Assembly (NCBI GenBank): GCA_022799175.1
Contig: JAAWNY010000032.1
Coordinates: forward strand, 1 to 32,243
Direction of reading: 5' to 3'
Length of the DNA stretch: 32,243 nt
Source of the DNA: Lachnospiraceae bacterium
GTDB taxonomy: Bacteria > Bacillota > Clostridia > Lachnospirales > Lachnospiraceae
Both the position numbers and the translations under genes were made by a program. The notes under the pieces are model-generated. The model saw only the letters and a list, made by a program, of their open reading frames with translations, was not told the origin of the DNA and did no database searches. Shown piece after piece: positions 11,136 through 31,989 of this stretch; the first letter of the stretch is position 1; every line of letters begins with the position of its first letter.

Positions 11136-11165
11136 CAACTTAATGGTAAAAATTCACATTTGTAC

Positions 11166-11195
11166 TTGACATATCCAAAGATTTCATGGTAGTAT
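11166..11195 (+). promoter_or_regulatory. Promoter of the glpK operon
   Basis: TTGACA (11166-11171) and TAGTAT (11190-11195) are separated by 18 bases. The layout matches the promoter at 13681 in both spacing and -10 type, suggesting co-regulation. Confidence 0.65.
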
Positions 11196-11216
11196 TAAAC
11201 ACATAAAAAAATAACG

Positions 11217-11276
11217 CCTTAGAGATGACAGAGCAGGTAGATGAATGCGGGTGACCGTTCATCCCCCTGCTTTTCT
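11217..11276 (+). promoter_or_regulatory. glpK leader: conserved motif plus intrinsic terminator (putative GlpP antitermination site)
   Basis: The leader carries CCTTAGAGATGACAGAG (11217-11233), which recurs at 13727 with one mismatch. A stem follows: GCAGG (11233-11237) with CCTGC (11266-11270), and GATGAA (11240-11245) with TTCATC (11258-11263), then TTTTCT. In B. subtilis GlpP with G3P relieves termination in glp leaders. The sequence shows motif and terminator; GlpP binding is inferred. Confidence 0.6.
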
Positions 11277-11373
11277 AGATCGGTTGAGAAAAAATTAACA
11301 AAGCTCTTGCCGCAGAGAAAGTCATGCAGGGAATGGTGAGGTCATTGAAAAGGTGAAATAGGAGGAGAAGGAT

Positions 11374-12870
11374 ATGGGCAAGTATGTAATTGCACTGGAT
11401 CAGGGAACTACCAGCTCCCGGTGTATCTTGTTCGATGAACAGGGAACCATCTGCAGCGTGGCGCAGAAGGAATTTACGCAGATTTATCCGCAACCTGGCT
11501 GGGTGGAGCACAACCCGATGGAGATCTGGTCTTCGCAGCTTTCGGTGACAATGGAGGCTATGGGAAAGATCGGTGCCCATTATAGTGATATTGCTGCCAT
11601 TGGCATTACAAACCAGAGAGAGACAACGATTGTCTGGGACCGGGATACCGGAGAGCCCGTGTACAATGCGATCGTCTGGCAGTGCCGCCGCACGGCAGAT
11701 CGTATTGAGAAGTTAAAAGAAGATGGGTTACAGGAGAAGATTATCGACCGCACAGGGCTGATTCCGGACGCTTACTTTTCAGGAAGTAAGATTGCATGGA
11801 TTCTGGATCATGTGGAGGGAGCCAGGGAGCGGGCAGAGCGGGGGGATTTGCTGTTCGGTACGGTGGATACATGGTTGATCTGGAACCTGACCAAAGGCTG
11901 CATCCATGTAACCGATTATACCAATGCGGCACGTACCATGTTGTTTGACATTCACAAAAAATGCTGGGATGAGGAGATTCTGGAATATTTCAGGATTCCT
12001 AAATGTATGCTTCCAGATGTGAAGCCGTCTAGTTGTGTCTATGGCTACACCTCTTCGGATGTTATGGGGGGCAAGATCCCGATTGCCGGAGCGGCTGGAG
12101 ATCAGCAGGCGGCGTTGTTTGGCCAGTGCTGTTTTGATGCTGGGGAGATGAAAAATACCTACGGCACCGGATGCTTCTTGCTGATGAATACTGGAAATGC
12201 GGCCGTAAAGTCCCATCATGGTCTGTTGACTACGATTGCGGCCAGCAGTCAGGATGAGAGTCAATATGCGCTTGAGGGAAGTGTGTTTGTGGCAGGGGCT
12301 GCCGTCCAGTGGCTGCGGGATGAAATGCGCATGGTGCGTACAGCCGGACAGACGGAAGAGTATTGCAATTCGGTGGAGGATACAGGTGGCGTATATGTGG
12401 TACCGGCCTTTGCCGGGTTAGGAGCACCTTATTGGGATCAATATGCTCGGGGTACGATTGTGGGGGTGACTCGCGGGACCAACAAGGAGCATTTTATTCG
12501 GGCGACAGTAGAGTCTATGGCCTATCAGGTATCTGACTTGATTGAGGCGATGCAGCAGGATTCCGGGATTCCTCTAAAGCAGCTGAAAGTAGACGGCGGA
12601 GCCTGCGCCAATAATTTTCTTATGCAGTTCCAGTCAGATATTGTGAATGCTGAAATTGTCCGTCCGGAGTGTATCGAGACAACGGCTCTGGGTGCGGCTT
12701 ATCTGGCAGGGCTGGCAGTGGGCTACTGGAAGAGCAAGGAAGAGATCCGCAGAAATTGGCAGATTTCCCGCTCTTTTGTGAGCACTATGGAAGAGGAACG
12801 CCGACAGAAGCTGGTGAAAGGTTGGAAGCGGGCAGTGAAATGTGCGCTTTGTTGGTCGGAAGAGGAATAA
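11374..12870 (+). CDS. glpK: Glycerol kinase
   Basis: GlpK phosphorylates glycerol with ATP to sn-glycerol 3-phosphate in the cytoplasm. The 498-residue FGGY-family protein has all hallmarks: DQGTTSSR at the N-terminus, [52 protein letters not shown] and [30 protein letters not shown] lies just before ATG 11374. No glycerol facilitator gene lies in the window. Expression is probably controlled by the leader terminator upstream. The next gene encodes an MgtC-like protein 62 bases downstream, so the two are probably one operon. Confidence 0.96.
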
Positions 12871-12932
12871 CCGTAACCGCTTAATTGTTTGGCATGGTTG
12901 CAAATAATTATAAAAAGCAGGAGGGAATACAT

Positions 12933-13634
12933 ATGACAGTTGATTCACTGGGAGTGGCAATCCGGGGTCTGACCGATCCGATGTTTCTGCTGAGTGAGGC
13001 GGAATTGATCTTTCGTGTAGGTCTGGCCTGCATTTTGGGTTGGATGATCGGAAATGAGCGGAAGAACCGCAATAAGTCTGCAGGAACCCGTACCCATGCG
13101 ATTGTGGCGTTGGGGTCAGCCTTGGCTATGGTGGTATCCAAGTATGGGTTTATGGATATGCCGGATCATGATGCGGCCCGGGTGGCAGCACAGGTGGTCA
13201 GTGGAGTGGGCTTTTTAGGCGCAGGAATTATTTTTGTCAGAAATAATCTGGTCAACGGACTCACAACAGCGGCTGGAATGTGGGCGACGGCCAGCGTTGG
13301 TTTGACTGTGGGTTCTGGACTTTATGTGATCGGGATTGCTTCAACACTGATTCTGGTGGTGATGCAGATCATCACCCACCGGATCGCTTATCTGGCAAAG
13401 GTGGCTTCTGCCGGAATGATTCGTATGACTCTTGTTCAGGAAGCGGATGCCGTCAAAAATATGCGGAAATATTTGGAAGATTCCCGGGTGGATGTGGCTT
13501 CCGTTAAGATTCATAAAAATAAAAAGGAGGAGGTCAAGCTGGAGTTTGAGGTGATTTATCCTCCGGGTTTTGACAAGGCAACATTATTCTCCCATCTGGC
13601 GGAGATGCCAGGACTCATTACTATTAGTGAATAG
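12933..13634 (+). CDS. MgtC/SapB-family membrane protein
   Basis: This 233-residue protein has four N-terminal membrane helices with the MgtC core (AELIFRVGLACILGWMIGNERK, GTRTHAIVALGSALAM, AAQVVSGVGFLGAGIIF, NGLTTAAGMWATA). A C-terminal soluble ACT-like domain spans about residues 160-233. Members are linked to Mg2+ homeostasis or act on the F-type ATPase in some pathogens; here the role is unknown. ATG 12933 follows AGGAGGG. It is an odd companion for glpK and sits between glpK and the glpA-like operon; Mg-ATP or membrane-energy adjustment is only speculation. Confidence 0.85.
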   Translation: MTVDSLGVAIRGLTDPMFLLSEAELIFRVGLACILGWMIGNERKNRNKSAGTRTHAIVALGSALAMVVSKYGFMDMPDHDAARVAAQVVSGVGFLGAGIIFVRNNLVNGLTTAAGMWATASVGLTVGSGLYVIGIASTLILVVMQIITHRIAYLAKVASAGMIRMTLVQEADAVKNMRKYLEDSRVDVASVKIHKNKKEEVKLEFEVIYPPGFDKATLFSHLAEMPGLITISE

Positions 13635-13680
13635 TAACAATATAGTTAAAAACTTAACAAAAAGAAATAGTAGAATTGTC

Positions 13681-13710
13681 TTGACAATTCCTGTAGAACT
13701 GTGATAGCAT
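13681..13710 (+). promoter_or_regulatory. Promoter of the glpA-like operon
   Basis: TTGACA (13681-13686), an 18-base spacer and TAGCAT (13705-13710) give the same architecture as the glpK promoter. The 310-base gap 13635-13944 is otherwise filled by the leader terminator and a second small hairpin. Confidence 0.65.
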
Positions 13711-13726
13711 TAAGACAGTTAAAAAA

Positions 13727-13791
13727 CCTTTGAGATGACAGAGTAAGGTGAAGGAAGCGGACAGACCGTTTATTCTCCTTACTCTTTTTTT
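13727..13791 (+). promoter_or_regulatory. glpA-like leader: conserved motif plus intrinsic terminator (putative GlpP site)
   Basis: CCTTTGAGATGACAGAG (13727-13743) matches the glpK leader at 16 of 17 bases. Its last bases form the terminator stem: AGAGTAAGG (13740-13748) pairs perfectly with CCTTACTCT (13777-13785), followed by a run of T. Motif and terminator overlap, so protein binding to the motif could prevent the stem from forming. A second stem, ATAACCG/CGGTTAT, follows at 13792-13816. Confidence 0.65.
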
Positions 13792-13944
13792 ATAACCGAT
13801 GGGAAAAGGCGGTTATAAGGGATCGGAGGGGGAAGTAACTGATGGGATAACCGTTCGGACTGTTTGGGCTGTTATCTGACTGGTAGGTGCGGCTATGCCT
13901 ATGCATGGCTGCAGAGGCGCAAAAATGTATATGGAGGAAGAGAC

Positions 13945-15381
13945 ATGAAGGAATGGAATTTCGATGCGGTGATTATCGGCGGCGGCGTGACCGGCTGTGC
14001 GATAGCGAGAGAGCTTTCCCGCTATGAGATGCACACAGCGCTGATTGAGCGGGAGGAGGATGTCTGTTCTGGCACATCCAAGGCCAATAGCGCCATTGTC
14101 CATGCCGGACATGACGCAGTTCCCGGCTCAGTGAAGGCACGGTTTAATGTAGAAGGCAACCGCATGATGGGCGAACTTGCAGAAGACTTGGATTTTGAAT
14201 TTGACAGGAATGGTTCTTTGATCTTGTGCTTTGCTGAGGAGGACAGACCAGCATTGCAGGAATTGTATGATAAAGGGGTAAAGAACGGGGTACCGGATCT
14301 GAAAATCATTACCGGAGATGAGGCAAGGGCGATGGAGCCTAATGTCAGCGATGCAGTGGTGGCAGCACTGTACGCACCTACCGGCGGTATTGTATGTCCC
14401 TTTGGCTTGACGATTGCGCTGGCTGAGAATGCCTGTGATAATGGGGTGGAATTTATTTTTCATGAAGAAGTAAAAAAGGTGGTAAAGACAGAGAATGGCT
14501 ATGACTTAGAGACGACAAATGGCGTGGTACATACGACTTATGTCATCAATGCGGCTGGAGTCTATGCCGATGAGATTCATAATATGGTTAGCGAAGAAAA
14601 GCTGCACATCACTCCTCGTAAGGGTGACTATTGTCTGCTGGACAAAGAAGCAGGAAATCATGTAAAGCACACGATTTTCCAGCTGCCGGGCAAACTGGGC
14701 AAAGGGATTCTGGTAACTCCCACCATTCATGGAAATCTTTTGACGGGACCGACAGCTAAGAATATCGAGGACAAAGAATCTACGGCTACTACAGCAGAGG
14801 AACTGGCAGAGATCATGGAAAAGGGAAGTATCAGTGTGAAGAACGTGCCGTTCCGCCAGGTGATCACTTCCTTCTCCGGATTGCGTGCCCATGAGGACGG
14901 GGATGACTTTATTGTGGGAGAGGCCAAGGATGCTCCAGGTTTCTTTGATGCGGCAGGTATTGAGTCACCGGGGCTGACCAGTGCACCGGCGATCGGCGTT
15001 TATCTGGCTGAGAAGGTAGCCGAGAAGGCAGGGGCTGCTAAAAAGGCAGAGTGGAACGGCCAGCGTAAAGGTTTTGTTCGTCCGGAGAAACTGAGTATGG
15101 AGGAGCGGGCGGCTTTGATCAAGGAGCGTCCGGAGTATGGAACCATTATCTGCCGTTGTGAAGGCGTCAGTGAGGGCGAGATTGTGGATGCGATCAACCG
15201 TACTTTAGGAGCCGTATCCTTAGATGGCATTAAGCGTCGGGTACGTCAGGGTATGGGACGGTGTCAGGCAGGCTTCTGCACCCCGAGAACCATGGAGATT
15301 CTGGCAAGAGAGCGTGGCATGGAGATGGAAGATATTTGTAAAAATGCACCCGGTTCCAATATGTTGACCGGTCAGAAATAG
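13945..15381 (+). CDS. glpA: Anaerobic glycerol-3-phosphate dehydrogenase-type FAD protein (GlpA/GlpO-like) with C-terminal [2Fe-2S] domain
   Basis: This 478-residue DAO-family flavoprotein probably oxidises G3P to dihydroxyacetone phosphate. VIIGGGVTGCAIARELSRY is the FAD-binding fold. SGTSKANSAIVHAGHDAVPG and VINAAGVYADEI are typical of this family. GLRAHEDGDDFIVGE fits the C-terminal part of the oxidase fold. The last 75 residues hold C403 and C405 (ICRCEG), then C440 and C445 (GRCQAGFC), a BFD-like [2Fe-2S] site. ATG 13945 follows GGAGGAAGAG; the frame extends upstream but has no better site. Two redox partners follow at 12 bases and then 1 base spacing. Confidence 0.9.
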   Translation: MKEWNFDAVIIGGGVTGCAIARELSRYEMHTALIEREEDVCSGTSKANSAIVHAGHDAVPGSVKARFNVEGNRMMGELAEDLDFEFDRNGSLILCFAEEDRPALQELYDKGVKNGVPDLKIITGDEARAMEPNVSDAVVAALYAPTGGIVCPFGLTIALAENACDNGVEFIFHEEVKKVVKTENGYDLETTNGVVHTTYVINAAGVYADEIHNMVSEEKLHITPRKGDYCLLDKEAGNHVKHTIFQLPGKLGKGILVTPTIHGNLLTGPTAKNIEDKESTATTAEELAEIMEKGSISVKNVPFRQVITSFSGLRAHEDGDDFIVGEAKDAPGFFDAAGIESPGLTSAPAIGVYLAEKVAEKAGAAKKAEWNGQRKGFVRPEKLSMEERAALIKERPEYGTIICRCEGVSEGEIVDAINRTLGAVSLDGIKRRVRQGMGRCQAGFCTPRTMEILARERGMEMEDICKNAPGSNMLTGQK

Positions 15382-15393
15382 GAGGGCGGCGAG

Positions 15394-16659
15394 ATGGCAA
15401 AGCATGATATCGTAATTATCGGCGGGGGCCCTGCGGGGCTTGCGGCAGCAGTGGCTGCGAGAAAGGCAGGCATTCAGGACATTCTGATTCTGGAGCGTGA
15501 CGGCTGTCTGGGTGGAATCTTAAATCAGTGTATCCACAATGGCTTTGGCCTTCATACCTTTAAGGAGGAACTGACTGGGCCGGAGTATGCGGCACGTTAT
15601 ATTGAGATGGTGGAGGCGGAGAAGATTCCGTATAAGTTAAACACCATGGTTATTGACATCAATAAAGATAAGGAAGTCACAGTCATCAATAAAGAGGACG
15701 GCTTGACGACCATCCAGGCCAAGGCGATCATCCTGGCTATGGGATGTCGGGAGCGTCCGAGAGGCGCCCTCAACATTCCGGGCTACCGTCCGGCAGGTAT
15801 TTATTCTGCTGGTACTGCTCAGCGCCTGATGAACATTGAGGGATTCAGTGTGGGCAGAGAAGTTGTGATCTTGGGTTCCGGCGATATTGGGCTGATTATG
15901 GCAAGAAGAATGACTTTAGAGGGAGCCAAAGTAAAGGTAGTGGCAGAGCTGATGCCTTATTCTGGCGGCTTAAAGAGAAATATCGTACAGTGCCTGGATG
16001 ATTATGGCATTCCGCTGAAATTGAGTCATACAGTTGTCAACATTGAGGGCAAGGAACGGGTGACCGGAATTACGATTGCCCAGGTGGGGCCAGACCGTAA
16101 GCCGATTCCGGGGACAGAAGAGCATTATACCTGCGATACGTTATTGCTGTCGGTTGGCTTGATCCCAGAGAACGAGCTGAGTCGTAGCATTGGTATTGAT
16201 ATGAGTCGGATCACCTCTGGCCCAGAAGTGAATGACCAGCTGGAAACAAGTGCGGAAGGTGTATTTGCCTGCGGTAATGTGCTCCATGTGCATGATCTGG
16301 TAGACTACGTGTCTGAGGAAGCAACTCTGGCCGGAACCAATGCGGCGGAGTACGTAAAGAGCGAAGAACAGAAAGGTAATTGCCATCTGGTTGAACTGAA
16401 GGCAGAGAATGGCGTTCGCTATACGGTGCCGCAGACCTTAGATATTCATAACATGCAGGAGAAGGTGACGGTTCGTTTCCGCGTGGCAGATGTATATAAG
16501 GACCGGTATATCAGTGTGTACTATGATGGAGTTCAGATTTCCAAGAAGAAGAAAAAGGTGTTGGCGCCTGGAGAGATGGAGCAGGTAGTCCTGAAAAAGG
16601 ACAGCTTTGGAGAGTATCCGAATTTGAAGAATATCGTGATTTGTACGGAGGTGGAATAA
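15394..16659 (+). CDS. FAD/NAD(P)-dependent oxidoreductase, second subunit of the G3P oxidation complex
   Basis: This 421-residue pyridine-nucleotide-disulfide-type flavoprotein has an FAD loop (IVIIGGGPAGLAAAVAAR) and a second Rossmann loop (VVILGSGDIGLIMARRMTLEG). Also visible are a Cys-containing stretch (GGILNQCIHNGFGLHTF), ILAMGCRERPRG, and the flavin-contact end GVFACGNVLHVHDLVDYVSEE. It probably passes electrons from the GlpA-like subunit to NAD or another carrier, replacing classical GlpB. It starts 12 bases after the dehydrogenase, and the small four-Cys gene follows after one base. Confidence 0.85.
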   Translation: MAKHDIVIIGGGPAGLAAAVAARKAGIQDILILERDGCLGGILNQCIHNGFGLHTFKEELTGPEYAARYIEMVEAEKIPYKLNTMVIDINKDKEVTVINKEDGLTTIQAKAIILAMGCRERPRGALNIPGYRPAGIYSAGTAQRLMNIEGFSVGREVVILGSGDIGLIMARRMTLEGAKVKVVAELMPYSGGLKRNIVQCLDDYGIPLKLSHTVVNIEGKERVTGITIAQVGPDRKPIPGTEEHYTCDTLLLSVGLIPENELSRSIGIDMSRITSGPEVNDQLETSAEGVFACGNVLHVHDLVDYVSEEATLAGTNAAEYVKSEEQKGNCHLVELKAENGVRYTVPQTLDIHNMQEKVTVRFRVADVYKDRYISVYYDGVQISKKKKKVLAPGEMEQVVLKKDSFGEYPNLKNIVICTEVE

Positions 16660-16660
16660 T

Positions 16661-17023
16661 ATGGAGACGAGAGAACTGATCTGTATCGGGTGCCCATTAG
16701 GATGCCCATTGACAGTCCGTATAGACGGGGAGAACGTGGAAGTAAATGGAAATACCTGCAAAAGAGGCGATGATTATGCCCGGAAAGAGGTTTTGAGTCC
16801 CACCAGGATTGTGACTTCCAGTGTACATGTAAACGGCGGAGAGCTGGAGATGGTATCCGTTAAGACTAAAGAAGATATTCCGAAAGGTAAGATTTTTGAG
16901 ATCATGGAGGAGATTCGCAAAACCACAATCAATGCACCTGTGGCTATCGGAGATGTGGTGATTGAGAATTGTGCCGGGACCGGAATTCCTGTGATTGCCA
17001 CTAAGAATGTGGCCAGTGCATAA
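16661..17023 (+). CDS. DUF1667 small redox protein with four Cys, third subunit
   Basis: This 120-residue protein opens with CIGCPLGC: Cys at 8, 11 and 15, then Cys 33 (GNTCKRG). The CxxCxxxC...C pattern resembles the [4Fe-4S] site of molybdopterin oxidoreductase N-termini, so it may carry an iron-sulfur cluster. It belongs to DUF1667, regularly found next to GlpA-like and FAD oxidoreductase genes in Clostridia and Thermotogae. The role in electron transfer is inferred from context. It begins one base after the previous gene, implying equal expression. Confidence 0.82.
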   Translation: METRELICIGCPLGCPLTVRIDGENVEVNGNTCKRGDDYARKEVLSPTRIVTSSVHVNGGELEMVSVKTKEDIPKGKIFEIMEEIRKTTINAPVAIGDVVIENCAGTGIPVIATKNVASA

Positions 17024-17161: not shown

Positions 17162-17866
17162 CTAGCGGAATGGTTCTGGCGGAAGGTAATAGGCATAACG
17201 CAGGAAGGATATCATGGCTTGCGCGTGGGATGTGTGGGAAAGCACTAAGAGGCAGTAGGAATCGGAGCCGTCATAGGCCGGATTCTGGAGAAACCGACTA
17301 GTGTCAAGCTCCAAGCAGCAGGTTTTTTTTGTTCCGGTTCCATCCGTTGTGGAGATGAGATGGTTTTGGACTTTAGTTAAAAGCTGAGGCTCATCGGCTA
17401 AGAGAAGCTCTAAGTCATATAAAGGAAAAGATTCCGCATAGTAGAACGCCAGCTCTTTGGGAGCGACTAAAAAGTCTAGTTCCCGGGCGGCGGTGTAGGC
17501 TACGATTTTCCCCTGGCTGGCGGCGTGGTATTCGCTGCCGGAATCCAGGTCTACATAGAGAGAGTCCTCGAAAGCAATACGGTGTCCATGGGGAGTGCCA
17601 TAGTAAGAGGAGAAGTCAAGGATTAGTTCCTTAGCAGGGAAGAGATTTTGCCGATCGTTGACAAAGAAGCCTTGTAGGTCAATGACCTGGTGACTCTGCC
17701 AGATCATGTCTCCGATATAAAACAGAAGGAGAAAAAAAGCGAAAGCAAGGAAAAAAAGGCCCCGATAGTAGTCGAAAATGAAGCGCAGCTTCTGACGGGG
17801 GGAAAGGGTTTTTAGTGTCTCTCGATCCTTTTTCCAGCTGCGGACAAAGCGATTGTCTGTGAACAT
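17162..17866 (-). CDS. Membrane-anchored protein of unknown function, 234 aa
   Basis: The protein has a basic N-terminus (SWKKDRETLKTLSPRQKLRFI, then FDYYRGL), one membrane helix at about residues 36-54 (FFLAFAFFLLLFYIGDMIW) and a soluble C-terminal part with no motif I recognise. Similar anchored proteins with a KLRFIFDYY-type start are common in Lachnospiraceae, but no function is known to me. Its own promoter is at 17930-17958 and AGGAGG precedes the ATG. It is divergent from the YesL-type gene, and its 3' end faces the glp operon terminator. Confidence 0.7.
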   Translation of the reverse strand: MFTDNRFVRSWKKDRETLKTLSPRQKLRFIFDYYRGLFFLAFAFFLLLFYIGDMIWQSHQVIDLQGFFVNDRQNLFPAKELILDFSSYYGTPHGHRIAFEDSLYVDLDSGSEYHAASQGKIVAYTAARELDFLVAPKELAFYYAESFPLYDLELLLADEPQLLTKVQNHLISTTDGTGTKKTCCLELDTSRFLQNPAYDGSDSYCLLVLSHTSHAQAMISFLRYAYYLPPEPFR

Positions 17867-17979: not shown

Positions 17980-18627
17980 ATGAACTTTAACGTGAACGGC
18001 TTGTTCAACCCAGAGAATCGTTTCTGGTCATTTATGGATAAAATCATGAATTTGTGTGTGGCCGGTATTTTGTGGTTCTTATTTTCTCTGCCACTCATCA
18101 CAGTTGGGGCGGCAACTAGTGCGCTTTTTGGGTATACATTAAAGCTGGCACGGAATGAAGAGGGGTATCTGTTGAAAAGTTTCTGGAAGGGGTTTTGGGA
18201 AAATTTTGTTACATCTACTTTGTTATGGCTGGGAACTTTAGCGGTAGGTATGTTTTTGGCGGCCGATCTGTTTGCCTGTCAATTTTTGCCGGCGGTAGGA
18301 GCGTTGCGGTGGGGCGTGCGAGCTTTGTTGGTGAGCTTGATTTTTGTGTATTTTTTAACGATTATTTATCTATTTCCGTTGGTTGCTACCTTTCGAGTTT
18401 CCTGGAAAAAGGTGGTAAGGGATGCTTTGGTGATGGGCGTAGGGAATCTGTATGTCTCGGTGACAGTGTTGGTGATTTATGGATTTTTTGGAGTGATTAC
18501 TTGGTTTTTTCCGATTCTTTTTATGGTATGGTTTGCACTGGCAGCTTATTTTTCCTCGCATCTGTTATATTCCGTGTTTATGCGGTATTTACCGGAGAAG
18601 GATGAATTATACAATAGTGAGCGGTGA
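17980..18627 (+). CDS. YesL-family (DUF624) membrane protein
   Basis: This 215-residue integral membrane protein has about five hydrophobic helices and the DUF624 start pattern NPENRFWSFMDKIMNLCVAGILWFLFSLPL. YesL proteins are typically encoded beside sugar ABC importers in Firmicutes, as here, where a binding-protein gene follows. Their biochemical role is unknown. GAAGGAGAAAATT precedes ATG 17980. Confidence 0.85.
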   Translation: MNFNVNGLFNPENRFWSFMDKIMNLCVAGILWFLFSLPLITVGAATSALFGYTLKLARNEEGYLLKSFWKGFWENFVTSTLLWLGTLAVGMFLAADLFACQFLPAVGALRWGVRALLVSLIFVYFLTIIYLFPLVATFRVSWKKVVRDALVMGVGNLYVSVTVLVIYGFFGVITWFFPILFMVWFALAAYFSSHLLYSVFMRYLPEKDELYNSER

Positions 18628-18750: not shown

Positions 18751-18779
18751 TTGCGGGATTGTAGGGTTTGTGGTATCAT
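18751..18779 (+). promoter_or_regulatory. Promoter of the UgpB-like ABC operon
   Basis: TTGCGG (18751-18756), a 17-base spacer and TATCAT (18774-18779) precede a 178-base leader. The upstream part of the 330-base gap (18628-18750) is AT-rich and holds nothing else I recognise. Confidence 0.55.
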
Positions 18780-18819
18780 AAGGATACAACAATTAAATAT
18801 GGTCTGCTGCAGAGAGAAT

Positions 18820-18883
18820 GAGATAAAGCAAAGCAATGAATGCATATACGGATGTATTTAGTGTTGGCGGTATCTCTTTTTTT
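18820..18883 (+). terminator. Leader terminator/attenuator of the ABC operon
   Basis: GAGATA (18820-18825) pairs with TATCTC (18871-18876), followed by an unbroken T-run to about 18883. The 45 bases between can form smaller stems. It sits between promoter and first gene, so it must be read through or regulated for expression. The glp leaders share only TGAGAT with it. Confidence 0.5.
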
Positions 18884-18957
18884 GTGTGCTTTTTCGGAAA
18901 AAAAGGAAGGGTAGGCGGATCATAGGAAAGTAAAAACTAAGAAAGGGGAAATTTATT

Positions 18958-20331
18958 ATGAGAAAAAAAGTGGCATTGCTTCTGGCAGCAGCGATGGTAG
19001 CAGGAGCAGTATCCGGGTGCAGCGGTGGCGGCTCTACGGGAAAAGCGGCAGTAAATGCAGGAGGTGGATCCTCGGATAATGGGGGAGCTGAGGCGTCAGA
19101 GGCGGCACCGGTGGATCCGGCTAACTATGAGGTGACAGAGCCAATCACAATCAAGTGGTGGCATGCGTTGGAGGATCAGTATTCTGCCACTGTGGATAAG
19201 GTGGTCAGTGATTTTAATAATTCCCAAGATCTAATTACCGTGGAGGCAGAGTACATCGGAAGCTATTCTAAGCTCAATGAGGCGCTGGTGGCGGCTCATG
19301 CGGCGGGCACCGATCTTCCTGCACTTACGGTTGCGAATACGCCTTATGTGGCTGAATATGGTGCAGGCGGTCTGACAGAAGATTTAACCCCATACATCGA
19401 GGCATCAGGCTATGATGTGGAAGACTTTGGAGACGGTATGATTGAAGCGGCCAAATATAACGGAAAACAGGTTTCGCTGCCGTTTCTGATTTCTACTCAG
19501 ATCATGTATTATAATAAAGATATGGCGGATGAGATGGGAATTACTATGCCGACTACCTGGGACGAGATGGATGCATTCATGGAGAAGGGCACCAAGAAGG
19601 CGGCAGACGGGACCACTGAGGTATATGCGAGCATCATTCCTGGCTGGGATCAATGGTATTTTGAAACTTTTTATTTGAATCAGGGTGTGAAGATCATCAA
19701 CGACGATCAGGTAACCACAGATTTGGGAGATGAGAAGGCAGTGGCAATTGCACAGAAGATTCAGGACTGGTGTAATGCCGGGTATACTTACTGGACGGGG
19801 ACGGCTGAGGATGCATCCTCCAACATGAGACAAAACTTTATCTCTGGCAAGGCGCTGTCGGTTGTGCATACCAGTTCTTTGTATAACAACTATGTCGATC
19901 AATGTGATTTTGAGATTGGTATGGCTTGGCTTCCAGGAGCAGATACCAAGAAGCAGGAGATCGGTGGCTGTGTATTGTTGATCCCGTCTAAAAATGACCA
20001 GGCAACCAAAAATGCGGCATGGCAGTTCTTGCAGTATCTGTGCAGCAAGGACGTCAATATGACTTGGGCAGAGGGCACCGGTTATATGCCTACCAGAAAG
20101 TCTGTGCTGGAGACCGAGGAGGGCAAGGCATTTTTGGAGAAGAAACCGGCGTTCCAGGCAATCTTTGATAATCTGGATTTGATTTATCCGAGAATTCAGC
20201 ACAAGGGCTGGTCTCAGCTGGCTACCATCTGGAAAAACATCATGGCTGAGGTGATGATGGAGAATGGGGATGTGCCAGCAGGCATGGAGCAGATGGCAGA
20301 TGAGATCAATGATGTGCTGGCAGATGCATAA
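18958..20331 (+). CDS. ugpB: UgpB-like ABC transporter substrate-binding lipoprotein
   Basis: This 457-residue family 1 extracellular solute-binding protein has a lipoprotein signal (residues 1-21; AVSGC with lipid-bearing Cys21) and a Gly/Ser linker. Features resembling E. coli UgpB are PFLISTQIMYYNKDMADE, IPGWDQWYFETF (UgpB has GWQGWIQLENF), HTSSLYNN, EIGGCVLLIPSK and WAEGTGYMPTRKS (UgpB WHQKTGYLPITKA). These suggest G3P or a glycerophosphodiester as ligand, in keeping with the glp genes around it; another sugar is possible. AAAGGGG precedes ATG 18958. The permeases follow, but no ATPase. Confidence 0.82.
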   Translation: MRKKVALLLAAAMVAGAVSGCSGGGSTGKAAVNAGGGSSDNGGAEASEAAPVDPANYEVTEPITIKWWHALEDQYSATVDKVVSDFNNSQDLITVEAEYIGSYSKLNEALVAAHAAGTDLPALTVANTPYVAEYGAGGLTEDLTPYIEASGYDVEDFGDGMIEAAKYNGKQVSLPFLISTQIMYYNKDMADEMGITMPTTWDEMDAFMEKGTKKAADGTTEVYASIIPGWDQWYFETFYLNQGVKIINDDQVTTDLGDEKAVAIAQKIQDWCNAGYTYWTGTAEDASSNMRQNFISGKALSVVHTSSLYNNYVDQCDFEIGMAWLPGADTKKQEIGGCVLLIPSKNDQATKNAAWQFLQYLCSKDVNMTWAEGTGYMPTRKSVLETEEGKAFLEKKPAFQAIFDNLDLIYPRIQHKGWSQLATIWKNIMAEVMMENGDVPAGMEQMADEINDVLADA

Positions 20332-20385
20332 ATAGGGGGTTTCATTGCAATCTGTGCGAATGATGAGGAACCGATAAATAAAAGT

Positions 20386-20420
20386 CCGGCTGCCCGCTCC
20401 ATAACGGATAAGGTGGCCGG
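20386..20420 (+). other. Intercistronic hairpin between binding protein and permease genes
   Basis: CCGGC (20386-20390) and GCCGG (20416-20420) can pair, with CC/GG extending inside. There is no T-run. In other ABC operons such a stem protects the binding-protein mRNA and lowers permease output. Confidence 0.4.
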
Positions 20421-20440
20421 GGAATGTGAGGGGGCGCTAT

Positions 20441-21346
20441 ATGAAAGAAAAACGAATTAACCCCAGAAAGCTTTCTGCAGTGAAGGATTTTAGTTGTGTG
20501 CTTCCAGTTCTGATCTTTCTGGCAGTATTTACCTACTATCCGATTGTGGAGTTGCTGCGGATTAGCTTTACGGACTGGAATCTTTTAAATGATACCTGGC
20601 AGTATGTGGGGCTTAAAAACTGGACCTGGTTGTTTGCTGGTTCCGGCACTAAATATTTGTGGAATTCTCTGAAGGTTACCGTGTTGTACTCCATTGGTGA
20701 GTTGAGTATCACTTTGATTGGTGGTATGATCTTTGCCTTGATTTTTAACCGGATGACCAACAGCTTTGCTGCTATGAGAGCGATTATTTTTATGCCCAAG
20801 TATGTGGCAATGTCCTCGGCTGCAGTGGTATTTTTGTGGATTCTCAACACGGACAGCGGTATTTTTAATTACTTGCTTTCTCTGGTGGGGATAAAGGCAG
20901 TGGATTGGCTGGGCGATAGAAATATGGCACTGATTTCGGTACTAATGTTGACTGGGTGGCGCTGTATTGGTTATGGCATGATGGTGTATCTGTCGGCAAT
21001 GATGGGCATTGCCACGGATTATTATGAGGCAGCGGCGCTGGACGGGGCCAATGCGGTGCAGCGGTTTTTTAAGATTACGTTGCCGATGTTGTCACCTACG
21101 ACCTTGTTCTTGTTTGTGACAACTTTCTTGTCTTCCATGAAAGTATTCCAGTCCGTTGATATCCTGACCCAGGGAGGGCCATATCGTTCCACAGAAGTGT
21201 TTGTGTATAATATTTACCGTTATGCAATGGTGGATTTCCGTATGGACCGTGCCTCTACGGTAGGTATTTTCTTCTTCATTTTGCTGCTGATCGTGACGGT
21301 GGCGACGATGAAGATTTCCAACGGCAACGTTACTTACGATTCATAA
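20441..21346 (+). CDS. ugpA: ABC transporter permease, UgpA-like
   Basis: This 301-residue permease has six hydrophobic helices. Near residue 200 it has the EAA loop EAAALDGANAVQRFFKITLP that contacts the ATPase. FSCVLPVLIFLAVFTYYPIV and ISFTDWNLL are usual for MalF/UgpA-type subunits. ATG 20441 follows GAGGGGG; a GTG at 20426 is less likely. It pairs with the next gene to form the membrane channel for the solute delivered by the binding protein. Confidence 0.88.
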   Translation: MKEKRINPRKLSAVKDFSCVLPVLIFLAVFTYYPIVELLRISFTDWNLLNDTWQYVGLKNWTWLFAGSGTKYLWNSLKVTVLYSIGELSITLIGGMIFALIFNRMTNSFAAMRAIIFMPKYVAMSSAAVVFLWILNTDSGIFNYLLSLVGIKAVDWLGDRNMALISVLMLTGWRCIGYGMMVYLSAMMGIATDYYEAAALDGANAVQRFFKITLPMLSPTTLFLFVTTFLSSMKVFQSVDILTQGGPYRSTEVFVYNIYRYAMVDFRMDRASTVGIFFFILLLIVTVATMKISNGNVTYDS

Positions 21347-21358
21347 GGGGGGACAGAT

Positions 21359-22240
21359 ATGAGTGTACAGGCAGCAGCCAATACAAACGCGCGAAATGAA
21401 TCAGCAAAGAGAAAAAGGAAGATTATGGCGGGTATTCAGTGGGCTCTGGCGATTATCGTACTGATCATTATCGTCTTCCCAATTTACTGGATGCTGGTGT
21501 CCTCCGTTAAATCCCAGGAAGAGATTTTGCTGGCGATTCCGACTTTGTGGCCGAAGGAATTTCATTTTGAAAACTATATCAATGTATTGAACCGGGGAAA
21601 TTTTGCAAAATATTATTGGAACACCTCGGTGATGACGGCAGGGATTTTGATTGCTCAGGTAGTTACTGGCATATTTGCGGGTTATGGCTTTTCCAAGGGC
21701 AAATTTAAGGGGCAGGGACTTTGTTTTATCATTGTTCTTGGTGCTTTGATGATTCCTCTGCAAGTTACGTTTATCCCGATTTATATTATGATGGCGAATT
21801 GGGGAATGTCGGATACGTTTTTGGGATTGATTCTCCCAGAAGCAGTATCTCCCTATTATATCTTCATGCTGCGGCAGACCTTTATGTCCATTGACGACAG
21901 CTATATTGAAGCAGCTCGTATGGATGGTCTGGGACGGGTGGGGATTATCACCAGGATTTTGGCGCCAATGTGTAAATCGACTTTGTTCACCGTGACCTTG
22001 GTGACGTTTACTAATGGCTGGAATGCATATTTCTGGCCGAAGATTATTGCTAAAGGTGAGTCCAGGCGGGTATTGACCGTTGGCTTGGCTTACTTAAAGA
22101 ACACCTTTGCTGGCGGCGAGTCTATGAATAACCATGAGATCATGGCAGGTGCGGTGTTAGCAGTGGTGCCGGTTATTATCCTATTCTTTATCTTCCAGAA
22201 ATATATGCTGACCGGATATTCGAAAGCAGCAATGAAGTGA
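21359..22240 (+). CDS. ugpE: ABC transporter permease, UgpE-like
   Basis: This 293-residue permease has six helices and the MalG/UgpE-type pattern: IVLIIIVFPIYWMLVSSVKS, ENYINVLNR, the EAA loop EAARMDGLGRVGIITRILAP, and the end QKYMLTGYSKAAMK. It begins 12 bases after ugpA with AAGGGGGG as ribosome site. No MsmX/UgpC-type ATPase follows; a shared ATPase elsewhere in the genome is the usual solution in Firmicutes. Confidence 0.9.
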   Translation: MSVQAAANTNARNESAKRKRKIMAGIQWALAIIVLIIIVFPIYWMLVSSVKSQEEILLAIPTLWPKEFHFENYINVLNRGNFAKYYWNTSVMTAGILIAQVVTGIFAGYGFSKGKFKGQGLCFIIVLGALMIPLQVTFIPIYIMMANWGMSDTFLGLILPEAVSPYYIFMLRQTFMSIDDSYIEAARMDGLGRVGIITRILAPMCKSTLFTVTLVTFTNGWNAYFWPKIIAKGESRRVLTVGLAYLKNTFAGGESMNNHEIMAGAVLAVVPVIILFFIFQKYMLTGYSKAAMK

Positions 22241-22444: not shown

Positions 22445-22499
22445 AATCGGTACAGTGGAAAACGTTTTGCGTTTTGACTGTACCGATTCTTGAGTTTTT
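22445..22499 (+). terminator. Terminator of the ABC operon
   Basis: AATCGGTACAGT (22445-22456) is perfectly complementary to ACTGTACCGATT (22477-22488), with an inner AAAACG/CGTTTT stem. A tail with TTTTT follows. This is a strong intrinsic terminator just before glpP. Confidence 0.85.
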
Positions 22500-22518
22500 G
22501 ATGAAATACCTTTATAAT
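22490..22518 (+). promoter_or_regulatory. Promoter of glpP
   Basis: TTGAGT (22490-22495), a 17-base spacer and a perfect TATAAT (22513-22518) lie directly in and after the tail of the ABC-operon terminator. Confidence 0.6.
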
Positions 22519-22566
22519 AGAAGAAAAAAATAGGGATTTATGGAAGCAGGAAGGGGGATTACGAAT

Positions 22567-23127
22567 ATGAAAGCAATTGAGTTATTGGAGACATCGCCAG
22601 TGATTGCAGCAGTGAAGGATGATAAGGGACTGCAGCGCTGTTTTGAATCAGAGTGCCAGGTGGTATTTGTCCTATATGGGAATATCTGTAATATCGGGGG
22701 GATTGTACAACAGATTCAGGAGCATGGGAAGGTGGCGATTGTCCATGTAGATTTGACAGCGGGATTGAGTGCCAAAGAGGTGGCGGTGGATTTTATCAAA
22801 CAGACCACCAGTGCGGATGGGATCATCAGTACAAAGCCATTGCTGGTGAAACGGGCATTGGAGTTAGGGTTGTATGGGGTGCAGAGAACCTTTATGATTG
22901 ATTCTATGGCAGTGAATACCATGAAGAAGCAGATTGATACCTTTCACCCGGATTTGGTGGAGGTGATGCCGGGGATTATCCCGAAAGTATTAAAGGAGAT
23001 TCGGGACTATACAGATATTCCGATCATTGCTGGAGGACTGATTTCGGACAAAAAGGATATTATGGCAGCGTTTGCGGCTGGGGCGGATGCTATCTCTACA
23101 ACGAAGGAGGAGCTGTGGTTTGCATAA
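22567..23127 (+). CDS. glpP: Glycerol uptake operon antiterminator GlpP
   Basis: GlpP is a TIM-barrel-like RNA-binding regulator that, with G3P, prevents termination in glp mRNA leaders. The 186 residues (family about 190) include LLETSPVIAAVKDD, QVVFVLYGNICNIGGIV, GKVAIVHVDLTAGLS, ADGIISTKPLLVKRALE, QRTFMIDSMAV, DLVEVMPGIIPKV and DIPIIAGGLISDKKDI, the core of the family throughout. ATG 22567 was chosen because AGGGGG lies about nine bases upstream. The next gene begins 14 bases on. Its likely targets are the leaders at 11217 and 13727. Confidence 0.93.
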   Translation: MKAIELLETSPVIAAVKDDKGLQRCFESECQVVFVLYGNICNIGGIVQQIQEHGKVAIVHVDLTAGLSAKEVAVDFIKQTTSADGIISTKPLLVKRALELGLYGVQRTFMIDSMAVNTMKKQIDTFHPDLVEVMPGIIPKVLKEIRDYTDIPIIAGGLISDKKDIMAAFAAGADAISTTKEELWFA

Positions 23128-23140
23128 AGGGAGAACTACA

Positions 23141-23818
23141 GTGTATCTGCGAAAAGAGGAACCGTTTGTAAATATTGAGGGAGAAAAAGGGTGGCATTAT
23201 GGTGGGAACCAGGCATGGTTTACCTGGGAGGGGCGTCAGTGGCAGAGCCATGTGGCTAGACAGGGCGCTTGTGGGACCGTGGCATTAGCCAATATTGCAG
23301 CATACTTGGCGAGGAGCAATCCGGTGTATGCGGGGCTCTATCCGTATCCGGATTACAGGAAGGTTAATTTTCTGACACATATGGCAGAGCTGTATAGGTA
23401 TGTAAAGCCGTTTCATATTGGAAAGTTTCCTCTGGGAATTTGGCCGGTCAGTCGGTTAGCTGGTGGTATGGAGCGTTTTGCCAGGGAACGGGGGGTGAAA
23501 TTGCAGGCAGTATGGCGGGATTGGGGGTTTAGTCGGGAGAATGTGCTGCGATATATGCTCGAAGGGATCGGGAAAGATCGGCCAGTGGCGATGTTGGTGG
23601 GCACGCATAAGCTAAGACAGGTAGAAATAGTGCTTCCTGGTGGAGGTGCTTATGAGGAGGATATTTCGTTGCATTGGGTAACCGTGACAGGAGTAGAATT
23701 GGATGCCAAGGAGGAGACGACTAAACTGGTAGTGTCCACCTGGGGCGGACGGGCGTTGTTGGATTTGAATGAATATATGAAGGAGAAGGTTTATGCGGGG
23801 GTAGTGTATTTTGAGTAG
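23141..23818 (+). CDS. C39-like papain-fold cysteine peptidase, cytoplasmic
   Basis: This 225-residue protein lacks a signal peptide and resembles the Peptidase_C39_2 fold. The likely nucleophile is Cys44 (RQGACGTVALANIAAYLA) and the likely base is His178 (LHWVTVTGVE), with a following strand (LVVSTWGG). GTG 23141 follows AGGGAG (23128-23133). A TTG at 23120, preceded by GGAGG inside glpP, is an alternative that would overlap the glpP end. Function is unknown. Placement suggests co-transcription with glpP, but no peptide substrate or transporter fusion is present. Confidence 0.75.
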   Translation: MYLRKEEPFVNIEGEKGWHYGGNQAWFTWEGRQWQSHVARQGACGTVALANIAAYLARSNPVYAGLYPYPDYRKVNFLTHMAELYRYVKPFHIGKFPLGIWPVSRLAGGMERFARERGVKLQAVWRDWGFSRENVLRYMLEGIGKDRPVAMLVGTHKLRQVEIVLPGGGAYEEDISLHWVTVTGVELDAKEETTKLVVSTWGGRALLDLNEYMKEKVYAGVVYFE

Positions 23819-29207: not shown

Positions 29208-30782
29208 ATGAAAGACAAGACTCAGACAACAAAGCGTTCCTTTATTCTCCGCTTTCTTGACAGGATCGAGGTGGCGGGAAACAAGCTGCCGACTCCCCTG
29301 ACGATTTTTTTCTATCTGGCAGTGTTTGTAGTAGTGCTTTCCGGGATCGGTGCTGCTATGGGGTGGAGTGCCACTGGTGAAATGTACAATTCTGGAAGTG
29401 GAACGGTAGAGGAGACTACAGTAAGCGTGGTGAGCCTGTTCAGTATCTCGGGGCTGCAGTATATGCTGACATCGGCTGTGACCAACTTTACTGGCTATGC
29501 GCCTTTGGGCTTTACGGTAGTGATCATGTTGGGAATCGGTGTGGCGGAAAGCTCTGGTTGGTTGAATGGACTGATTCACAAGGTGGTGAAGATCACTCCG
29601 GCACAGCTGGTGACGCCTATGGTGGTATTTATCGGGGTTATGACTAATGTGGCGGAAAATGCGGGATATGTAGTATTTATTCCTCTGGCCGCCATGATCT
29701 TTAAGGCTTATAAGAAACATCCGCTGGCGGGCGTGGCAGCAGGTTTTGCCGGAGTGTCCGGTGGCTTTTCAGCCAATCTTTTGATCGGCTCGGCAGATGC
29801 GACTTTGTCCGGTTTTTCCACAGCGGCAGCGCAGACATTGGATCCAGCATACAATGTGACGCCATTGTCCAACTGGTTTTTCATGATTGCCTCTACGATT
29901 TTGATTACCATTGTGGGAACTCTGATCACTGAGTTGGTGATTATTCCCAGATTGGGGCCGTATAAGGAGAACGGAGACGGCACGTTGGTAGAGGTTTCCA
30001 ATGAACTGACGGGTAAGGAAGAGAAGGCGTTGCGAGTGGCTAACTTGGTATTTGTAGCGATTGTAGCCGTTTATGTGATCTGCTGCATTCCAAAGGGATC
30101 CTTTATGAGAAATCCGGAGACGGGAAGCCTGATCGAAGGTTCCACGCTGATGAATGCGATTATTCCGCTGTTTACGCTTTTGTTCTTTATTCCTTCTTTT
30201 GTATATGGCAAGCTTTGCGGCAGCTTTAAGAGCGATAAGGATGTGGTGGCCTCCTTTAATAAATCTATTGCTTCTATTTCCGGGTTTATTGCCATGGCAT
30301 TTGTGGCGGCACAGTTTACCAATTATTTTGGAAAGACGAATATCGGGCGGATTCTGTCCTTTAAGGGGGCGGAATTTTTGCAGAGTCTGAATATTAATTC
30401 TGTGGGACTCATGATGTGCTTTATTTTAGTGGCCGGATTTGTCAATCTGTTTATGGCTTCTGCTTCTGCTAAGTATGCGATCTTTGCACCAGTGTTTGTG
30501 CCAATGTTTATGAAGATGGGACTGTCGCCAGAACTGACGCAGGTAGCATATCGAATTGGTGATAGTACCACCAATATTATCGCTCCGGTTATTGCCTGGA
30601 TTCCGTACATATTGACAGTTATGAAGAAGTATGATAAGGATACGGGATGGGGAACCCTGGTTTCTTCCATGTTACCGTACTCTATGGCGTTTTTGGTGAG
30701 CTGGGCTATTATGCTGGCGATCTGGATGATCTTGAATCTGCCGCTGGGACCGGGGGCGCCCGTGTTCTATACCATTGGATGA
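29208..30782 (+). CDS. AbgT-family transporter
   Basis: This 524-residue integral membrane protein has about 11 helices and AbgT hallmarks: FLDRIEVAGNKLPTPLTIFF, APLGFTVVIMLGIGVAESSG, FAGVSGGFSANLLIGSADAT, and the last-helix region YRIGDSTTNIIAPVIAW. The family takes up p-aminobenzoyl-glutamate in E. coli, while others act as exporters. Here a dipeptide or aminoacyl substrate may be imported, as an M24 peptidase follows 57 bases on. GGAGAACTTG precedes the ATG. Confidence 0.9.
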   Translation: MKDKTQTTKRSFILRFLDRIEVAGNKLPTPLTIFFYLAVFVVVLSGIGAAMGWSATGEMYNSGSGTVEETTVSVVSLFSISGLQYMLTSAVTNFTGYAPLGFTVVIMLGIGVAESSGWLNGLIHKVVKITPAQLVTPMVVFIGVMTNVAENAGYVVFIPLAAMIFKAYKKHPLAGVAAGFAGVSGGFSANLLIGSADATLSGFSTAAAQTLDPAYNVTPLSNWFFMIASTILITIVGTLITELVIIPRLGPYKENGDGTLVEVSNELTGKEEKALRVANLVFVAIVAVYVICCIPKGSFMRNPETGSLIEGSTLMNAIIPLFTLLFFIPSFVYGKLCGSFKSDKDVVASFNKSIASISGFIAMAFVAAQFTNYFGKTNIGRILSFKGAEFLQSLNINSVGLMMCFILVAGFVNLFMASASAKYAIFAPVFVPMFMKMGLSPELTQVAYRIGDSTTNIIAPVIAWIPYILTVMKKYDKDTGWGTLVSSMLPYSMAFLVSWAIMLAIWMILNLPLGPGAPVFYTIG

Positions 30783-30839
30783 TGCGATTTATTTAAGTGA
30801 TTTCTGGTGTGTATTCTAAATCGTATAAGGAGGATGGAG

Positions 30840-31916
30840 ATGTTTGAAGAGAGAGTAGCAAAGGTGCTGAAAAATATGGAGGAGAAGGGGCTGGAGCAGA
30901 TGATTGTCAGCGACCCGCCTTCGGTGTATTATCTGACGGGGAGATGGATTTTGCCGAATGAGCGTTTGCTGGCTCTTTATTTAAATAAGAGTGGGAATCA
31001 TAAGCTATTTGTAAATAAGTTGTTTACGGTCGATGGGGATATTGGGATTGAAAAAGTTTGGTTTTCGGATACGGATCCCGGGTGTGAGATTATTGCCAGA
31101 TATACAGATTCGGATAAGGTGCTGGGAATTGATAAGAAGATGGCGGCCAAATTTTTGCTAGAGTTGATGGAGCTGGGGGCGGGAAACGGTTATAAAAATG
31201 CCTCTGAGTGCGTGGATAAAGCTCGCCGGATTAAAGATGAGGATGAGAAGGAAAAAATGATTCTGGCATCTCAACTGAACGATGCGGCTATGCTTAAGTT
31301 TCGTGGGCTGATTCAAGAGGGCGTGACGGAGCTGGAGATTGCAGCGGGGATGAACGCCATCTATAAGGAGCTGGGAACCGAGGGCCCATCGTTTGGACCA
31401 CTGGTCAGCTTTGGGGCGAATGCAGCGATTGGGCATCATAAACCAGATGGGACTGTGCTGAAGGAAGGGGACTGCGTGCTCTTTGATGTAGGATGCAAAA
31501 AAAATGGGTATTGTTCGGATATGACACGGACGTTTTTTTATAAAAGCGTCAGTGATAAAGGCCGGGAAGTTTATGAGGTGGTGAAAAAGGCGAATCTGGC
31601 GGCACAGGCGGTGATGAAGCCAGGGATGCGGTTCTGCGATATTGATAAGGTGGCGCGGGATATTATCACTGAGGCAGGGTATGGACCTTATTTTACGCAC
31701 CGGCTGGGTCATTGTATCGGGATTGAGGTTCATGATGCAGGGGATGTATCAGCAGTGAATACGGATGTAGTGGAGGAAGGGATGATTTTCTCTTGTGAAC
31801 CGGGGATTTATCTGCCCGGTGAGTTAGGGGTACGGATCGAGGATCTAATGTTGGTGACGAAAGACGGGGCGGTGAGTCTCAACCAGGATTCGAAAGATTT
31901 GGAGATTATAGAGTAA
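30840..31916 (+). CDS. M24-family (Xaa-Pro type) metallopeptidase
   Basis: This 358-residue creatinase-N plus pita-bread peptidase has all five metal ligands in order with normal spacing: Asp216 (LFDVGC), Asp227 (CSDMTR), His291 (LGHCIGIEVHD), Glu320 (SCEPGIYLPG) and Glu334 (RIEDLM). A conserved His-containing GHHKPDG lies upstream. It should cleave Xaa-Pro or another dipeptide in the cytoplasm using Mn or Co. ATG 30840 has AAGGAGG (30827-30833) six bases before it; the extended frame from 30807 lacks one. It probably works on what the AbgT transporter brings in. Confidence 0.9.
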   Translation: MFEERVAKVLKNMEEKGLEQMIVSDPPSVYYLTGRWILPNERLLALYLNKSGNHKLFVNKLFTVDGDIGIEKVWFSDTDPGCEIIARYTDSDKVLGIDKKMAAKFLLELMELGAGNGYKNASECVDKARRIKDEDEKEKMILASQLNDAAMLKFRGLIQEGVTELEIAAGMNAIYKELGTEGPSFGPLVSFGANAAIGHHKPDGTVLKEGDCVLFDVGCKKNGYCSDMTRTFFYKSVSDKGREVYEVVKKANLAAQAVMKPGMRFCDIDKVARDIITEAGYGPYFTHRLGHCIGIEVHDAGDVSAVNTDVVEEGMIFSCEPGIYLPGELGVRIEDLMLVTKDGAVSLNQDSKDLEIIE

Positions 31917-31923
31917 GAATGGG

Positions 31924-31989
31924 AAAATCCGAAGGAGCACAGGGATTGACAGTTTTCAATGTTAGTCTCTGTGCTTCTTTGGATTTTTG
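31924..31989 (+). terminator. Terminator between the peptidase and the aldo/keto reductase
   Basis: AAAATCC (31924-31930) pairs with GGATTTT (31981-31987), and inside it GGAGCACAGGGA (31934-31945) pairs with TCTCTGTGCTTC (31966-31977) with G-U pairs. The flanking A and T runs allow termination in both directions, fitting the convergent genes. Confidence 0.75.

Follow-up and report, generated by a model that had tools for sequence, protein, structure and literature searches.

Twin-box hairpins overlapping terminators in the glpK, glpA-like and ugpB leaders of a Lachnospiraceae bacterium: candidate RNA targets of the antiterminator GlpP

The DNA analyzed here (the window) comprises 32,243 nucleotides of a Lachnospiraceae bacterium (assembly GCA_022799175.1, contig JAAWNY010000032.1, positions 1 to 32,243). 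It contains the glycerol kinase gene glpK, an operon starting with a glpA-like gene for a glycerol 3-phosphate (G3P) oxidoreductase, ugpB-, ugpA- and ugpE-like genes for a G3P transporter, and glpP, encoding a predicted G3P-responsive antiterminator whose closest named relatives are found in Lachnospiraceae (Table 1). The subject of this analysis is an element present in the leaders of glpK, the glpA-like gene and ugpB, namely, a hairpin whose loop carries two GAGA boxes and which overlaps an intrinsic terminator; it is considered a candidate RNA target of GlpP.

The initial annotation of the window proposed the 17-base motif CCTTwGAGATGACAGAG, shared by the glpK and glpA-like leaders, as the site recognized by GlpP. 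Exact copies of the motif are located at 11217–11233 and 13727–13743, respectively; the common upstream promoter form (TTGACA-18-TAGyAT) was recovered by a consensus scan, an intrinsic terminator after each copy was confirmed by folding (z of about −3 for both leaders), and glpP, placed about 9 kb downstream by the annotation, begins 8.8 kb from the second site. The end of the motif was correctly assigned to the terminator stem in the second leader; to this it should be added that in the glpK leader, too, the stem GCAGG/CCTGC opens with the final base of the motif, while the preceding AGA is able to pair with the U tract. At up to three mismatches, the only other match in the window was at 19124, within the ugpB open reading frame (ORF), with 0.18 matches expected in shuffled sequences and none of 100 shuffles reaching three; genome-wide, in a search limited to two mismatches, only the two copies matched with fewer than two.

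A third copy of the same leader type, absent from the initial annotation, lies at approximately 18751–18883, upstream of ugpB. Its element has the layout TGCT-GC-AGAGAGAATGAG-ATAA-AGCA, followed by a terminator (GAGATA/TATCTC-T7), and the folding z of the region 18800–18892 was −4.3. Six more loci have the same leader before ugpB, which is followed by ugpA, ugpE and glpP. If the third leader is controlled by GlpP, this protein would govern the import of its own ligand or of the source of that ligand, and, if glpP is co-transcribed with the ugp genes, it would govern itself as well; autoregulation through this leader is likely. The gap between ugpE and glpP is 300 bases and includes a long inverted repeat (approximately 22445–22488, by eye) and then a promoter-like sequence, TTGAGT-17-TATAAT (22490–22518). 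With these in between, glpP may or may not be co-transcribed with the ugp genes, and it may have its own promoter.

In 61 related genomes, the motif was found at 24 places with no more than one mismatch. Sixteen of these, in 10 genomes, were counted as leaders because a terminator could be read after the motif, and eight (L013, L018, L019, L020, L024, L027, L028 and L029) were left out, as no terminator was seen by eye in the bases printed. In six of the 10 genomes, the two sites occur together, separated by about 2.5 kb. The gene glpP was present in all 10 of these genomes, compared with 25 of the 61 overall (over the Pfam cut-off). According to the initial annotation, absence of the motif from glp leaders of other glpP-bearing genomes would refute the proposal, and, taken literally, this applies to the exact 17-mer, which has no leader copy in 15 of the 25 glpP-bearing relatives; the reading of the site as a GlpP target is supported. 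In eight of the 15, within 1.5 kb on each side of glpP, two boxes and a terminator precede a glp gene, some with weak arms, and therefore the element is wider than the 17-mer. The motif takes the form CCTTTGAGACGAAAGAGTAAGG or a close variant in named genomes such as those of Hungatella and Lacrimispora; both GAGA and AGAG are kept there and the spacer varies, which shows that these boxes are the bases that matter.

The 17-mer is one local variant of a broader conserved element, in which a hairpin with two GAGA boxes competes with a terminator. Reading of the leaders of 80 named GlpP loci revealed one plan despite sequence change: two purine boxes, GAGA-N1..7-RGAG, the second of which stands on the 5′ foot of the terminator, with complementary arms around them. 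Examples are the Roseburia-type TTACCGAGAGACATGAGCAAGGTAA, the Blautia-type ATTACTGAGAGATGAAGAGCAGAGTGAT and the Listeria TGTCAGGAGAAGAGATGACA, and the spacer between the boxes was 2–4 in 53 of 60 filtered elements. A first two-box pattern, which misses TGAGA-type boxes such as that of the second leader of the window, was found at a −15 kcal setting in 22 of 87 terminators before glp genes compared with 9 of 1243 other terminators. A covariance model, R1, built from 24 leaders, worked in near relatives but was judged too narrow in scope. With E up to 0.1, its matches fell in 48 of 250 genomes of the family, 21 of them glpP-positive (66 of the 250 overall); at E below 0.001, it matched eight genomes, seven of them glpP-positive, and in the eighth (G140) the better of two matches was in a sequence without glp genes. 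A broad covariance model was abandoned because the MAFFT alignment brought the boxes out of register, as was a fixed-register pair count, since arm offsets vary among leaders.

The bases just 5′ of the first box pair with those just 3′ of the second box. The arms found in the glpK and glpA-like leaders of the window (Table 1) are replaced elsewhere by GAGGACTT/AAGTCCTC, TTGGTTC/GGACCAA, TATGGC/GCCATG and TGTGGT/ACCGCA. To evaluate this pairing, 132 labelled elements were reduced to 102 non-redundant glp leaders for a permutation test and then to 60 with less than 60% identity. In the set of 102, the score of own arms was 9.77 versus 7.51 for permuted arms (standard deviation 0.24; 0 of 2000 permutations), whereas in the set of 60 it was 9.43 versus 6.1–7.4 for upstream stretches shifted by 12–36 bases (p from 3 × 10−7 to 0.002) and 6.71 when the letters were shuffled (0 of 500). 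The same permutation test by gene label gave 0 of 500 for glpA (47 leaders), 0 of 500 for glpP (34 leaders) and 6 of 500 for glpF (seven leaders). Since the arms pair around the boxes, CCTT, with which the motif of the initial annotation begins, is the 5′ arm of a second hairpin and not a free recognition or contact sequence. In 71 of 81 leaders with an arm score of at least 8, the 3′ arm was part of the 5′ strand of the terminator stem, with no more than one base falling outside the paired stretch; because it belongs to that side, the antiterminator and terminator folds cannot coexist. The median energy was −25.8 kcal/mol for the terminator versus −2.7 kcal/mol for the antiterminator, which, being far weaker, would therefore need a stabilizing factor.

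Linkage of the element with glpP was assessed in Lachnospiraceae in the sequence upstream of glpK, which spanned about 1.3 kb or, in some genomes, less; contig ends truncated some of the regions (for example, L259 and L269). The regions came from 50 of 66 glpP-positive genomes and 40 of 184 glpP-negative ones (no PF04309 match at E up to 10−10), taken mostly in the order of GlpK score and thus non-randomly. Boxes with a terminator were present in 16 of 50 versus 1 of 40 regions (p = 0.0003), and in several of the 16 the element precedes a glpP that itself precedes glpK; four unrelated box patterns were found in 0–3 of 50 and 0–3 of 40. Outside this family, the phylum was represented by the GlpP loci that scored best, 29 in number, among 90 genomes with glpP. 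Here, the element occurred on the glpP strand of 14 of the 29 loci, in most cases directly behind glpP, and on the opposite strand of none. The full descriptor of the element, which was shaped on part of the loci later counted, gave 46 matches on the GlpP strand and 3 on the opposite strand of the 80 named GlpP loci (1.35 Mb), compared with 4 and 0 in the reversed sequence; seven other box patterns gave 0–10 matches on the GlpP strand. A labelled glp gene lay within 600 bases of 31 of the 46 matches. All these genome counts are not independent, owing to the shared ancestry of the species.

A compact conserved leader structure with two exclusive folds could also represent a riboswitch that senses G3P or glycerol itself, without GlpP; this would agree with the lack of any Rfam family in the window, in the elements of nine other loci and, at E up to 1, in the region 11140–11380. 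A loop of about 11–18 nucleotides with just two conserved boxes is small for a ligand pocket, and the element tracks glpP and accompanies GlpP homologues in other phyla, so that a riboswitch is regarded as very improbable.

Several results weigh against control of these leaders by GlpP. The arms of the glpK leader in the window are just 4 bp long, including one G-U pair, and the 11 glpK-labelled leaders taken alone gave no significant arm signal (55 of 500). Twin-box matches away from labelled glp genes also pair above controls (67 elements, 1 of 2000; 57 elements), which means either that many of them are unlabelled true sites or that the statistic is not specific to glp leaders. When arms were required, the glpK count fell to 5 of 50 versus 0 of 40 (p = 0.063); one of the 16 matches (L243) runs into the glpK start and has the appearance of a chance match, and one glpP-negative assembly (L207, genome G160; 92% complete, 210 contigs) has the element before glpK and is either a counter-example or an assembly gap. 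Among the 80 named loci, 42 had no descriptor match on the GlpP strand, 15 of the 46 matches had no labelled glp gene within 600 bases, and a stricter setting (arms of at least 6 bp, −15 kcal/mol) left five matches in four loci, with 0 on the opposite strand and 1 in the reversed sequence. Finally, the reversed box pattern was enriched as well, i.e., in terminators before glp genes (9 of 87 versus 8 of 1243), upstream of glpK (12 of 50 versus 2 of 40), in the 29 loci (6 versus 0) and in the 80 loci (21 versus 2), in part because true elements also match the reversed pattern.

This enrichment, together with the occurrence of other purine patterns, is what would be seen if purine-rich leaders simply stood next to ordinary terminators by chance. 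Such an explanation is already disfavoured by the strand bias, the reversed-sequence controls and the arm covariation, and its probability is taken to be minimal; the window itself gave five descriptor matches, compared with an average of 0.185 for first-order random sequences (n = 200), although two of the five, at 30106 and 31901, are probably due to chance.

The element, its position, its two exclusive pairings, the covariation of its arms and its linkage with glpP point to GlpP-controlled transcription attenuators as the function of these leaders, a reading which, resting on sequence comparison, is given a probability of roughly 85%. GlpP would be the binder, G3P the trigger and the two boxes the contacts. 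According to this reading, transcription would start at the constitutive-looking promoter and by default stop at the leader terminator, and the nascent RNA would first show the weak hairpin with the two purine boxes in its loop (GAGA, a spacer of usually 2–4, and RGAG). When G3P is present, GlpP would bind both boxes and keep the hairpin closed, thereby withholding the 5′ arm needed by the terminator, and RNA polymerase would then read into glpK, the glpA-like operon and the ugp genes.

Outside Clostridia, leaders of Cytobacillus glpF and glpD, Listeria glpF, and Paenibacillus glpP and glpD fit the element by eye. The strict descriptor, applied to 17 named loci, gave matches in nine (L141, L142, L143, L144, L146, L147, L301, L302 and L305); chance seems to account for the match in L143 and for one of the two in L147, which lie on the strand that does not encode glpP. 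It gave no match in the other eight, namely, Fusobacterium L145 and L306, Peptoclostridium L148, Listeria L149, Eubacterium eligens L150, Paenibacillus L151, and Klebsiella L303 and Cupriavidus L304, whose GlpP homologues are more distant (24% and 26% identical, respectively); leaders in L149 and L151 are visible by eye yet were missed (spacer 0; 3-bp arms).

In Escherichia coli K-12, the ygcW–yqcE interval carries two back-to-back elements about 5.5 kb from ygcP, the PF04309 homologue. These are AGTTACC-AGAGATAATGAG-AAA-GGTAACT before ygcW and ATTACT-AGAGACCTGAG-AAA-AGTAAT before yqcE, both running into a terminator; at the strict setting, 300 random sequences with the same base steps gave 0 matches. 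It should be noted that the two-box idea is older than the E. coli, Streptomyces and Enterococcus matches, and that the E. coli sites were already known when the final descriptor was drawn up. On each side of the interval, one promoter is listed in a published collection of constitutive RpoD promoters (PMC3946193), which is what an attenuator would need. Among 5426 E. coli genomes, the interval was present in 5018 and ygcP in 5068. In K-12 and five other strains, polymorphism affected 2 of 129 bases inside the elements versus 12 of 202 in the rest of the interval, a difference that was not significant (p = 0.089). In Streptomyces clavuligerus and on two Enterococcus plasmids, the element occurs in ygc-like clusters with short-chain dehydrogenase/reductase and flavin adenine dinucleotide-dependent oxidoreductase genes; the Streptomyces cluster also has an FGGY kinase gene, and in E. 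gilvus the element precedes a major facilitator superfamily transporter gene.

In the scan, which covered the ygcP cluster, both the ygcW and yqcE leaders carried the element, and they make up the proposed YgcP regulon. It is fairly probable, as one joint proposition, that PF04309 proteins of Bacillota, Actinomycetota and Pseudomonadota have the twin-GAGA loop antiterminator as their ancestral RNA target and that in E. coli the orphan YgcP controls ygcW-ygcU-ygcS-ygcR-ygcQ and yqcE-ygcE by antitermination, with a phosphorylated metabolite as the signal. The excerpts of the literature matches listed, a search with subscription papers outside its scope, held no description of the shared hairpin or of an E. 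coli YgcP target.

As for the rest of the window, an MgtC gene is listed between glpK and the glpA-like operon, and the true start of the glpA-like gene is likely the later ATG at 13945. The ORFs 23072–23818, beside glpP, and 17162–17866 (minus strand), behind the glpA-like operon, had no Pfam or NCBIfam match. At 31892–31985, at the end of ORF 30807–31916, a weak model and descriptor match with a terminator is probably an ordinary terminator.

Table 1. Leader elements and genes of the window, and elements located near glpP homologues elsewhere
Feature	Position	Strand	Basis and details
Promoter-like TTGACA-18-TAGTAT, glpK leader	11166–11195	+	Consensus scan
Antiterminator hairpin, glpK leader	11216–11238	+	Arms GCCT 11216–11219 / AGGT 11235–11238; sequence and descriptor match
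Boxes, glpK leader	AGAGA 11221–11225; AGAG 11230–11233	+	Sequence and descriptor match
Intrinsic terminator, glpK leader (GCAGG/CCTGC, then TTTT)	11230–11274	+	Folding, descriptor; 5′ side common with antiterminator
glpK, glycerol kinase	11374–12870	+	TIGR01311, 742.7 bits
Promoter-like TTGACA-18-TAGCAT, glpA-like leader	13681–13710	+	Consensus scan
Antiterminator hairpin, glpA-like leader	13726–13749	+	Arms ACCTT 13726–13730 / AAGGT 13745–13749; sequence and descriptor
Boxes, glpA-like leader	TGAGA 13731–13735; AGAG 13740–13743	+	Sequence and descriptor
Intrinsic terminator, glpA-like leader (AGAGTAAGG/CCTTACTCT, T tract)	13740–13791	+	Folding
glpA-like G3P oxidoreductase (DAO + BFD [2Fe-2S])	13864–15381	+	Pfam and NCBIfam, under glpA equivalog cut-off
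glpA-like operon, downstream ORFs	15394–16659; DUF1667 16661–17023	+	Pfam/NCBIfam; operon span 13864–17023
Promoter-like TTGCGG-17-TATCAT, third leader	18751–18779	+	By eye; absent from consensus-scan list
Antiterminator, third leader	18805–18830	+	Arms TGCT 18805–18808 / AGCA 18827–18830; descriptor
Boxes, third leader	AGAGA 18811–18815; TGAG 18819–18822	+	Descriptor
Intrinsic terminator, third leader (GAGATA/TATCTC, T tract)	18820–18883	+	Sequence and folding
ugpB, ugpA, ugpE-like G3P ABC transporter genes	18958–22240	+	ugpB/ugpE: NCBIfam, under equivalog cut-offs; ugpA: Pfam BPD_transp_1
glpP, G3P-responsive antiterminator, predicted regulator	22540–23127	+	PF04309, 225.7 bits
E. coli K-12 elements (L301), ygcW–yqcE interval	18299–18364; 18505–18567	−; +	Descriptor
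Streptomyces clavuligerus and Enterococcus plasmid elements near glpP homologues	L302 8773–8836; L146 7632–7691; L305 ~9647	L146 −; L305 −	

In sequence, the GlpP family is similar to barrel enzymes, HisF among them, and structures of two GlpP relatives exist (3KTS and 1VKF). A hairpin of about 25–30 nucleotides with two conserved boxes gives studies of binding, mutation and structure a defined RNA to work with; GlpP regulons would become predictable from sequence, and E. coli ygcP, so far an orphan, would become a regulator open to testing in the laboratory organism with the best tools.

In Bacillus subtilis, according to PMC9604022, G3P-activated GlpP relieves the leader terminators of glpD, glpFK and glpT, the 5′ untranslated region of each containing a GlpP site and a terminator. 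A 2020 review states that G3P-bound GlpP binds 'the antiterminator' (PMC7430163), so that an antiterminator may already have been drawn for B. subtilis. The present system is like that of B. subtilis in its PF04309 regulator, promoter, leader terminator and kinds of target gene; the window contains all the features of a B. subtilis-type GlpP leader (promoter, leader terminator, glp gene, and glpP in the genome), and the site is common to the leaders and linked with glpP in relatives, the opposing results given above notwithstanding. Unlike in B. subtilis, the site is defined here by sequence and covariation across taxa, and a ugp leader is added. The comparison with B. subtilis concerns system features only, the fit by eye being to other Bacillales (Cytobacillus, Listeria and Paenibacillus). 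Thus, GlpP antitermination is known in Bacillus, and the definition of the hairpin across phyla and the E. coli prediction are, so far as found, the new part.

In ribonucleic antiterminator (RAT) systems, the 3′ arm of the protein-stabilized hairpin is the 5′ arm of the terminator. The hairpin described here likewise overlaps and excludes the terminator, as do the RATs of BglG, SacY and LicT, and this common architecture would suit a different RNA-binding regulator of the BglG/LicT, TRAP or HutP kind acting on the boxes, with glpP merely co-inherited. Repeated NAG or GAG boxes near a terminator are also typical of TRAP sites and, as outlined in PMC7430163, of HutP sites. In Bacillota, Streptomyces and E. 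coli alike, the element was found in loci that contain a PF04309 gene, so that such a regulator is judged improbable, and GlpP remains the preferred binder. Unlike in the BglG, SacY and LicT systems, the linked regulator itself matches PF04309 and neither a CAT nor a PRD family. The RNA features contacted by LicT are two bulges and the intervening stem (PMC7430163), whereas the element here presents two GAGA boxes in a loop; unlike HutP and TRAP sites, it has two boxes only, closed in a hairpin loop by covarying arms.

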